The notes below the pieces were generated by a model, which saw only the letters and a list, made by a program, of their open reading frames with translations, was not told the origin of the DNA and did no database searches. From assembly GCA_035528375.1 (NCBI GenBank), contig DATKYS010000003.1:1-12051 (forward strand): 12,051 nucleotides of DNA. The letters run 5' to 3'. This document shows, piece after piece, positions 2,040 through 4,351 of this stretch (its first letter is position 1; the number at the start of each line of letters is the position of its first letter). The DNA comes from a bacterium (lineage in GTDB: Bacteria; RBG-13-66-14). A program made the translations under genes and the position numbers.

Positions 2040-3011
2040 TTATTCTCGGGCGGGCTCATCGGACACCCCCCTTCTTTTCGTGAAGCCCAGCCAGGGCGGA
2101 ATCGGCTCGAACCCCAGCCGGCGGTTGATTTTCAGGATGGCCTCGTTGTTCCGCTCGTTGCCGGTGTTGATTCTCGGCACACCGTTCTCTTTCGCCCGGT
2201 CCACGCAGGCGTACTTGAGGGCGGTGGCGACGCCGCGTCCGCGGTGGGTCGCCCGGGTGCCGGTGGACTCGATGATGGCATGGTCCTCGGGGCCCGCGGG
2301 GTAGATGAGCTCGGTGAGGCCGACGAGCGCGTCCCCGTCGAGGGCGAGTAAAATTTCTTCTATCCGGCGGACCGGCGAGGCCATCTTCTCCCGCCACTCC
2401 GCCAGGTCGGCCTTTTTGTGCTCGACGGTGCCGGGCATGTCGTGCTCGATCTCCTCGTAGAGCGCCCAGAGTTTTTCCTCTTTGTCGGGGTCGTCCAGAT
2501 CGCCGTAGGTCGCCATCCGGTAGCCCCGTTCGCGGAACCGCGCCAGGGCCGCGTCGTGGTCGGCGGGCGGCGAGTAATGCACGAGGTCCAGCCGGGAGCA
2601 GACGTCGGTCATTTCGTGGACGAATCCGCGCCGCTGGAGCATCCCCCGCGCCGGGCCCCCGTCGTCCTGGCAACCGGCCAGAACCTGGCGCCAGTCCAGG
2701 TAAGCCAGGTGACCGAGCAGGAGGTCGAGGAGCGTCCGGCCGTGACCCCTGCCCCGGTGCCCCGGATGGACCGCCGCTTCCAGACCGAAGGTGCCGGGCT
2801 CGACGACGTGGCGCTCCTCGGACTTGAGATTGGCGTAGCCCGTCATCACCCCGTCATCCAGGGCGACGAACTCCAGCAGGTACGAGTCGTTGCGCAGCGT
2901 CCGGCGTTGGTAGCTCGCGCTCTCCAGGCTCACCGGCCAGTCGGGAAAGCAGGCGTTGGCTATCTCCAGGCGCCGGGGGAGGTCCGCTTCCTGGAATCGT
3001 CTGATCTTCAT
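2040..3011 (-). CDS. Tandem GNAT-fold N-acetyltransferase (two domains)
   Basis: This 323-residue protein carries two GNAT domains, roughly 1-145 and 155-315. Acetyl-CoA-binding motifs are visible in both: HRGRGHG (85-91) in the N-terminal half and THRGRGVA (255-262) in the C-terminal half. The second half also ends with the usual NTGN...INRRLGF block (282-301). Tandem GNATs include mycothiol synthase and antibiotic-modifying enzymes, but I see no residue pattern that fixes the substrate. The ATG at 3011 overlaps the stop of the upstream paralogue by 4 nt (ATGA), implying translational coupling. It is a clear paralogue of the upstream gene, sharing the MxIRRF start, the WALxE motif and the GNxxNExILxINRRxGF end. 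The ABC exporter follows, so modification plus export of one compound is a reasonable guess. Confidence 0.85.
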   Translation of the reverse strand: MKIRRFQEADLPRRLEIANACFPDWPVSLESASYQRRTLRNDSYLLEFVALDDGVMTGYANLKSEERHVVEPGTFGLEAAVHPGHRGRGHGRTLLDLLLGHLAYLDWRQVLAGCQDDGGPARGMLQRRGFVHEMTDVCSRLDLVHYSPPADHDAALARFRERGYRMATYGDLDDPDKEEKLWALYEEIEHDMPGTVEHKKADLAEWREKMASPVRRIEEILLALDGDALVGLTELIYPAGPEDHAIIESTGTRATHRGRGVATALKYACVDRAKENGVPRINTGNERNNEAILKINRRLGFEPIPPWLGFTKRRGVSDEPARE

Positions 3012-4018
3012 GGTCGTCCCTCGTGGGTAGGTTTTTTAAGCTGAAAAAAACCGCCGCCGGCCGTTGCCTCCGGGTTGGAGAGCGTCCAGCAGAGCCAGTC
3101 CGGCTGCGCTTGGAAGCCCATCCGACGGTTGATGGAGAGGATCGGCTCGTTCCCGAAGTGGTTGCCGGTCAGGAGCGCCGGCACGCCCTCGTCCCGCGCC
3201 CACTCCGCCGAGAGATACTTCAGCGCCGTGGCCAATCCCCGGCCGCGGTGCTCCCGCAGCACGCCCGTGGTGACGACGTACGCCGGTCCCGCGGATCCCG
3301 CCCGGAATCCCAACTCGGTCATCCCCACGAACTCGTCCCCCCGCCGGGCGACGAGCGCCGCATCCTTCCGCACGGCGGGGCTGTCGGTACGTTTCCGCTC
3401 CCAGGCATCGAAGGGCTGCCGGCGGTAGGTGTTGGGGCCGGGGTAGTCGCTTGCGACCGCCTCGTGCAGCGCCCACAGCCGCCGGAGCTTCGTCGGGTCC
3501 TCCAGCACGGCGAAGTTCTCCAGCGTGTAGCCCGCCGATAGCACCCGCGCCAGCACCTCGTCCCGGTCGTCGGGATTCCGGTAACCCTTCAGCTCCAGCC
3601 GCCAGGTGCAGTCCCGGCTTTCGAGCCGGAAGCCGAGATTTTCCAGCCACTCGAACGTGGTCCCGTCGTCCTCGTCGCAGCCGATATCGAGCTTGGCCCA
3701 GCGCAGCAGCGACAGACGGGCGGCGACGATTTCCCACAGCCGTTCGCGGACCACGCCGTCGCGGTGTGCCTTTTCGATAGCCATCTCCAGCAGGAACAGG
3801 CCCGGCTGGAGAAAGTGCTCGCGGCGGGAGGTAAGCTCCAGATGAGCGATGAGGCGGCCCGAGACCTCCGCGACGAAGGTCTCGCGGTAATCCAGCACAC
3901 TTTGGCCCCGCCGCTTCCACCGGACGCATTCCTCGTCTATCGGCCAATACGGGTAGACCCGGTTGTGCAGGTCCACCGTCCCCGGAAGGTCGCCCGATTC
4001 GAACCGCCGTATCCGCAT
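3008..4018 (-). CDS. Tandem GNAT-fold N-acetyltransferase, paralogue with degenerate N-terminal motif
   Basis: This 336-residue paralogue of the next gene is first in the operon. The C-terminal domain keeps the acetyl-CoA loop EHRGRGLA (256-263) and the LTGN...INRRMGF block (283-301). In the N-terminal domain the equivalent of HRGRGHG reads HRDGVVR (85-91) and has lost the Gly pattern, so only the second domain is likely to bind acetyl-CoA in the standard way. The ATG at 4018 is preceded by GGAGGAG 7-13 nt upstream. After residue 313 there is a C-terminal tail (GGGFFQLKKP and following) unlike the end of the paralogue; it is encoded by DNA that copies part of the terminator upstream of the operon. 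Transcription must pass a strong intrinsic terminator ending 48 nt before the start. The substrate is unknown. Confidence 0.85.
   Translation of the reverse strand: MRIRRFESGDLPGTVDLHNRVYPYWPIDEECVRWKRRGQSVLDYRETFVAEVSGRLIAHLELTSRREHFLQPGLFLLEMAIEKAHRDGVVRERLWEIVAARLSLLRWAKLDIGCDEDDGTTFEWLENLGFRLESRDCTWRLELKGYRNPDDRDEVLARVLSAGYTLENFAVLEDPTKLRRLWALHEAVASDYPGPNTYRRQPFDAWERKRTDSPAVRKDAALVARRGDEFVGMTELGFRAGSAGPAYVVTTGVLREHRGRGLATALKYLSAEWARDEGVPALLTGNHFGNEPILSINRRMGFQAQPDWLCWTLSNPEATAGGGFFQLKKPTHEGRP
3042..3068 (-). repeat. Partial copy of the operon's leader terminator, now coding
   Basis: The 19 bases at 3042-3060 (tgaaaaaaaccgccgccgg) are identical to 4064-4082, the 3' arm and T tract of the leader terminator. 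After a gap both resume with GTTGCCT (3063-3069 and 4097-4103). The copy lacks the 5' arm of the hairpin and lies 31 nt upstream of the second GNAT start, just as the intact version lies 48 nt upstream of the first GNAT start. It is read as the C-terminal tail of the first GNAT. Confidence 0.7.
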
Positions 4019-4065: not shown

Positions 4066-4099
4066 AAAAAAACCGCCGCCGGAATTCCCGGCGACGGTT
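4066..4099 (-). terminator. Intrinsic terminator in the leader of the GNAT/ABC operon
   Basis: On the minus strand AACCGTCGCCGG (4099-4088), loop GAATT (4087-4083) and CCGGCGGCGGTT (4082-4071) form a 12-bp stem with one G-U pair, followed directly by a T run to 4066. This is a textbook Rho-independent terminator for minus-strand transcription. No gene lies between it and its promoter at 4322-4351, and the operon starts 48 nt downstream, so it must act on the leader itself. Confidence 0.85.
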
Positions 4100-4315
4100 G
4101 CCTTTATTCAGGGCCTGAATATTACGTAGGCCCACTTCGCCGCCGGGATACACTCCGGGTGTTGAAAAGAACTCCGCTGGGCGCGGTCCGCCGAACCATG
4201 GCCGCCCAGAAGGCGCACGGAGCGCCGCTGACGGCAATCGGCAGAGCGCCGCGGAGCTTGGTATCCCGGGAAATCATTGAATCTCTTTCGTTAAACGTTG
4301 CCGGCCACACTTTCG
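4066..4315 (-). ncRNA. Structured leader RNA, putative riboswitch or attenuator
   Basis: About 250 nt are transcribed from the promoter at 4322-4351 and end in the terminator at 4066-4099. Helices seen by hand: P1 CCGGGATAC (4269-4261) with GTATCCCGG (4151-4143); P2 AAGCTCCGC (4259-4251) with GCGGAGTT (4177-4170); P4 GGCGC (4250-4246) with GCGCC (4216-4212); P3 CTGGGCG (4209-4203) with CGCCCAG (4183-4177). P2, P3 and P4 meet in a compact three-way junction with almost no unpaired linker. A 7-bp hairpin TATTCAG/CTGAATA (4121-4105) precedes the terminator. CCGGCGGCG (4146-4138) overlaps the 3' strand of P1 and can instead pair with CGTCGCCGG (4096-4088), the terminator 5' arm, acting as an antiterminator. 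I recognise no known riboswitch, T-box, 6S, SRP or RNase P signature. A 62-codon frame starting GTG at 4310 exists but lacks a ribosome binding site. It could also be an independent small RNA. Confidence 0.6.
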
Positions 4316-4321
4316 CCGGGT

Positions 4322-4351
4322 AATATAGTCCCGACCCACCGGGGCTGTCAA
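4322..4351 (-). promoter_or_regulatory. Sigma70-type promoter of the leader RNA and GNAT/ABC operon
   Basis: On the minus strand a perfect -35 TTGACA (4351-4346) is separated by 18 bp from -10 TATATT (4327-4322, 5 of 6 consensus). The predicted start of transcription is about 4315. In a GC-rich background this match is unlikely to be accidental. Confidence 0.7.

Follow-up and report, generated by a model that had tools for sequence, protein, structure and literature searches.

The leader of the ABC exporter operon in the window (the whole stretch of 12,051 nucleotides that was analysed) is a real and conserved attenuator, on present evidence not a riboswitch and most likely dependent on the ribosome. 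The upstream open reading frame (uORF), the pairings, their conservation and the gene context were computed, and we infer translation of the uORF, read-through and the inducer; it is very probable that the leader acts as a ribosome-mediated transcription attenuator with the logic of trp and bmrB. Related switches before the same exporter exist in several phyla and appear to be undescribed so far, and none of the open-licence papers searched describes a leader before this exporter.

Leader and exporter operon of the window

The minus strand carries, in this order, a promoter, a leader some 245 nt long, an intrinsic terminator, 48 nt of spacer and an operon for two GNAT acetyltransferases, an ABC ATPase and a permease. 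The original prediction, which had proposed a ligand-controlled attenuator here, named a TTGACA-18-TATATT promoter and a 12-bp terminator with a T run, and both were borne out. The promoter (4322-4351; TTGACA at 4351-4346, TATATT at 4327-4322) matches the consensus at 11 of 12 positions, with both hexamers kept in the congener G001. The terminator with its T run (4066-4099) forms a hairpin of 12-13 bp at 4099-4071 (nine G-C among 13 pairs) and is the top-ranking terminator-like site across the window. The predicted absence of a second promoter also held, as no promoter-like site was detected between the terminator and the first gene (4066-4018). The whole leader is more stably folded than shuffles (z -3.6), and its identity with that of G001, the nearest relative, is 92% in the ORF region, 88% in the terminator and 52% in the post-terminator spacer. 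A repeated element was considered and rejected, because the leader is single copy within its genome. A 19-nt exact copy of the terminator 3' arm and T run is located at 3042-3060 (minus) in the 3' end of the first GNAT gene, 31 nt before the start of the second, and is absent in G001; it is possibly the remnant of a terminator-plus-GNAT duplication. Elsewhere in the window, a promoter-like TTGACG-17-TATACT (8524-8552, minus) precedes the gene at 8454 and below, and is overlapped by a terminator-like hairpin at the end of an Omp85/PD40 gene (8536-8555, plus).

All four operon genes are encoded on the minus strand. The first acetyltransferase (3008-4018) is of two-domain size and matches Pfam Acetyltransf_1 at 1.7e-11, and the second (2040-3011) matches the same family in two stretches (3.1e-22) and is 38% identical to the first. 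Against the PDB, a profile of the pair and its relatives hits ORF14 (2wpw) along a single domain (1e-12); the acetyltransferases had no NCBIfam model at or above cutoff, and their resemblance to known families is weak. The exporter ATPase (1127-2059) matches ABC_tran at 1e-30, with drrA, below cutoff, as the best NCBIfam model. The ABC-2 type permease (235-1077; ABC2_membrane, 2.8e-15) is present in 11 of the 14 genomes of the phylum, with orthologues 55-96% identical. The original prediction took the whole GNAT-GNAT-ABC operon as the target, of which the ABC exporter stands and the GNAT part does not. No GNAT homologues of this family were found in G007-G013, and since exporters without GNAT genes carry the leader, these genes were rejected as the primary target. 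The ABC exporter is thus the core under control, and the tandem GNAT genes are a family-specific local insertion.

Some observations were made beside these loci. In G012 (L112, 3435-5990), a single ABC ATPase gene is followed by three tandem permease genes. GNAT paralogues in G006 and G004 (L013, L015) have similar imperfect palindromes, TGTATCTAACAGATATACA and TGTATCTTGCAGATACACC, ahead of the GNAT start (1501), which suggests a different, protein-based control. L162 contains a TPP riboswitch at 2060-2170 (78.9 bits, E 5e-14) on the strand opposite to the exporter operon.

The upstream open reading frame and its relatives

The earlier reading overlooked a uORF at 4277-4122 (minus), which overlaps the antiterminator strand. 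It comprises 51 codons plus TAA (MISRDTKLRGALPIAVSGAPCAFWAAMVRRTAPSGVLFNTRSVSRRRSGPT), has equal length in G001 and G003 without any indel, and is preceded by a weak Shine-Dalgarno-like GAAAGAG at 4283-4289 (duplex -2.9 kcal/mol); among the other Coatesbacteria leaders this duplex reaches -5.7 to -7.9 kcal/mol in nine and -0.9 in G001. Codons 44-47 double as the antiterminator strand, and the stop codon is 25 nt ahead of the terminator arm. In 10/10 Coatesbacteria leaders with an alignable antiterminator motif, the earliest good start codon shares the frame of that motif, a frame kept across 93-132 nt of intervening sequence, and in each of these ten the uORF body would stay open after shuffling with a chance of 0.18-0.56. 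G007 was left out of this count, its frame having been set arbitrarily with respect to the motif.

Altogether 34 leaders of this type were found: 11 in Candidatus Coatesbacteria, four in two other phyla (G149, G286 and G387 in one, G115 in another) and 19 in a further phylum, that of G336. All of them stand upstream of one ABC exporter, which also occurs in other phyla, and share a layout of promoter, uORF, a late-uORF strand that can pair with the terminator 5' arm, and terminator, with the uORF stop 16-34 nt ahead of the terminator arm in every case. A joint test of the pairing of the uORF start with the late-uORF strand, and of this strand with the terminator arm, was run against dinucleotide-shuffled uORFs and gave p<0.05 in 28 leaders, a statistic that is descriptive because related leaders are not independent. 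All 19 leaders of the largest non-Coatesbacteria group (phylum of G336) reached this level, and G003, G008, G011, G013, G149 and G286 did not.

Related leaders precede a GNAT gene in G003, G005 and G006, and a promoter, a uORF with Shine-Dalgarno sequence and a terminator lie ahead of the ATPase gene in G007, G008, G010, G011, G012 and G013; the exporter leader is absent in the Coatesbacteria genome G009. Searched against 61 genomes, a covariance model of the leader 3' part retrieved exactly five loci at 84-111 bits, those of the window, G001, G003, G005 and G006, the next best scoring 23.7. In the phylum of G336, the exporter was present in 22 of 103 genomes, and 19 of the 21 fetched loci contained a promoter, a uORF of 23-36 codons with a strong Shine-Dalgarno sequence and a terminator, the leader being absent at the other two.

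The uORF peptides vary widely in sequence and length (20-51 aa) among the leaders. Codon-substitution tests detected neither a bias to synonymous sites nor selection on amino acids, and in G007, G115 and G387 the conserved core is read by the uORF in another frame. Because the substitutions are unbiased and the frame differs in three leaders, the peptide sequence is probably of little importance and the act of translation would be what matters, which fits a sensor of slowed ribosomes better than an arrest peptide. An arrest peptide with a conserved C-terminus (RxR or RSGP-like) was rejected on the differing frames and the non-significant codon tests; moreover, arrest at the uORF C-terminus would mask the antiterminator, a further point against it. 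That the small ORF yields an exported or modified peptide, with the terminator merely lowering expression of the downstream export genes, would agree with its place before acetyltransferases and an ABC exporter, but this is highly improbable given the undetected amino-acid-level constraint, the variability of the peptide in both sequence and length, and the complementarity of strand 2 to the terminator arm.

Mutually exclusive pairings in the leader

The antiterminator 5' strand (strand 2, 4138-4148) and the terminator 5' arm (strand 3, 4086-4096) are at the centre of the proposed attenuator, strand 3 having either strand 2 or the terminator 3' arm (strand 4) as its partner. The pairing originally put forward, CCGGCGGCG (4146-4138) with CGTCGCCGG (4096-4088) including one G-U, was confirmed and can be lengthened to 11 bp (4148-4138 with 4096-4086). 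An uninterrupted helix of this length is reached by about 3% of dinucleotide shuffles (p about 0.03), and the duplex energy gives p 0.003. Covariation, proposed as a check in homologous leaders, was found: two pairs of the antiterminator are altered on both sides in a compensatory manner in G006 and G005, the strands being CCCGGCGGCG/CGUCGCCGGG in the window versus CUCGACGGCG/CGCCGUCGAG in G006. Among the aligned leaders, 95.9% of the helix cells pair, compared with 26-71% when the helix is slid. The terminator and the antiterminator, sharing strand 3 and mutually exclusive, are conserved by covariation, partially so in G003, where the helix has one A.C mismatch and is alone not above shuffles. 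In the coatesbacterial exporter leaders without GNAT genes, G007 excepted, the antiterminator is CGGUGG-CGA-GGUGUAA / UUACGCC-GAC-CCACCG, in which one pair is exchanged between U.G, C-G and U-A as read from the sequences, and other leaders use GCCACG/CGUGGC, CCUUGCA/UGCAAGG or GUUCAC/GUGAAC. Such complete turnover of the strand sequences between groups, with pairing retained, amounts to strong covariation.

Strand 1, CCGGGATAC (4261-4269, uORF codons 3-6), is the 5' side of the stem P1 and forms 9 bp with 4151-4143. Tested directly, this duplex is better than 300/300 shuffles. Pairing of the uORF start with the uORF end is also found in other leaders and exceeds shuffles in 20 of the 34, a test that misses the window because strand 1 is largely outside the tested segment. 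The three-way junction that P1 was thought to close is present in the minimum free energy structure, but it is not conserved, with 40 of 65 pairs left in the congener G003. The further claim that formation of P1 favours termination is unsupported at equilibrium, since the free, untranslated window leader still prefers the 2:3 helix (probability 0.75-0.96 once strand 3 is made).

These results bear on the ligand-controlled OFF riboswitch, in which P1 and the junction bind a small molecule and favour the terminator. The P1 strands are present in the window leader, and the core GTGTATCC (4146-4153) is common to the window and leaders in other phyla: GTGTATCC(ATTG) or one-base variants occur in G007, G149, G286 (GTCTATCC), G387 and G115 (GTGTGTCC), and variants in the remaining Coatesbacteria leaders. 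Because the reading frame of this core varies, part of its conservation is at the RNA level, which speaks for such a riboswitch. Against it, the junction and hairpins are not conserved in the congener, as given above, the segments between the P1 strands are unrelated and of different lengths across genera, and a uORF with its stop at a constrained distance is kept in all 34 leaders. No conserved aptamer was found, in terms of junction nucleotides or helices, the cross-genus common part being the short core only, and the 5' two thirds of the window leader could not be aligned to G005 or G006. The lack of any known riboswitch core, already stated in the original prediction, was confirmed with the 4227 families of Rfam 15, none of which scored above gathering at the leaders checked (BjrC68 gave weak hits at or close to three leaders, of up to 26.5 bits against a gathering score of 39), and leaders without an Rfam match count against this reading as well. 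The attenuator proposed originally stands, with its exclusive antiterminator and terminator and their compensatory changes, and its ligand part, with an unconserved aptamer, is very unlikely. A somewhat less doubtful, still tentative idea is that the GTGTATCCATTG core, found in differing frames in leaders of three phyla, could be an RNA-level site for a factor, a ribosome or a ligand beside the uORF switch, which would make the leader a composite and undescribed regulator of the exporter.

Proposed switch and comparison with known leaders

In the ribosome-mediated attenuator, the ribosome would follow RNA polymerase while translating the uORF. If it arrived at the last codons in time, it would cover strand 2 (codons 44-47), so that the terminator (3:4) would form and transcription would end at 4071-4066. 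If it were delayed somewhere within about the first 38-40 codons, then strand 2 would stay free and form the 2:3 helix, allowing read-through into the operon. When the uORF is not translated, the start region could pair with strand 2 (P1, 1:2), clearly favouring the terminator in some relatives; in the window, P1 protects only weakly at equilibrium, and its role could be a kinetic one. The most plausible inducer would be slowed translation, e.g. by a ribosome-targeting drug or similar compound that the ABC exporter could export and the acetyltransferases could modify.

Folding was modelled with the ribosome placed along the uORF and the RNA ahead of it folded up to the end of the terminator 5' arm. 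In 16/16 leaders tried, an early ribosome gave the antiterminator and a ribosome on the last codons gave none, a masking that is partly built in because the model removes the RNA behind the ribosome. The antiterminator of the free leader was lowered by 1:2 pairing to a varying degree in G149, L157 and L166, and weakly in the window. In the window and G001, the terminator is about as stable as the antiterminator, as might be expected of a leader independent of the ribosome or altogether unregulated, with constant read-through or a balance shifted by temperature alone; yet the three-strand complementarity recurs and the position of the uORF stop is constrained, making this the least probable of the explanations considered.

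An amino-acid attenuator, sensing charged tRNA by a run of particular codons as in the trp and his leaders, would share the 1:2, 2:3 and 3:4 layout, and the window uORF has three consecutive Arg codons, with Arg-Trp-Arg in relatives. However, these Arg codons are on strand 2 itself, where stalling would mask the antiterminator, and arginine attenuation was rejected on this wrong geometry. In the window uORF no regulatory codon run was found at a place where a stalled ribosome would leave strand 2 free, the uORF residues differ among the 34 leaders, and the operon encodes an exporter rather than a biosynthetic pathway, so that amino-acid sensing is very unlikely.

If the ribosome-mediated attenuator is true, it provides a phylum without cultivated members, and several lineages far from it, with a testable control of an export pump that drugs probably induce, and uORF attenuators can stay with one exporter family across phyla despite sequence turnover. 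The inducer of the leader would then point to the substrate of the exporter. The case also illustrates that a coding leader can be mistaken for a new riboswitch.

Several known leaders resemble this one in part. The trp/his-type attenuators have the same strands 1:2, 2:3 and 3:4 and a leader ORF ending near strand 2, but here no run of codons for a single amino acid is placed where it could halt the ribosome on the 5' side of strand 2, and the target is an exporter. In Escherichia coli, the toiL uORF of topAI-yjhQ has been proposed as a sensor of several classes of ribosome-targeting antibiotics (PMC12121999); it works via occlusion of the ribosome-binding site and Rho, whereas an intrinsic terminator is used here. 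The uORFC-6-1 motif upstream of hflX in Bacillales is a structured uORF leader with a proposed response to stalled ribosomes (PMC8632094), which is likened here by its description and not by motif sequence, and concerns a different gene and lineage. The closest known system, by analogy, is the bmrB leader of bmrCD in Bacillus subtilis, which serves the BmrCD multidrug exporter; there, lincomycin, erythromycin and chloramphenicol are reported to induce read-through, which requires translation of a 53-aa ORF (PMC4191407). Both leaders precede an ABC exporter operon, have leader ORFs of similar length (53 aa versus 51) and comprise a terminator, an antiterminator and an anti-antiterminator, but the bmrB terminator is inside the leader ORF, whereas here it lies 16-34 nt past the stop. 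The transporter genes differ between the two, and the likeness is one of layout rather than of sequence comparison.
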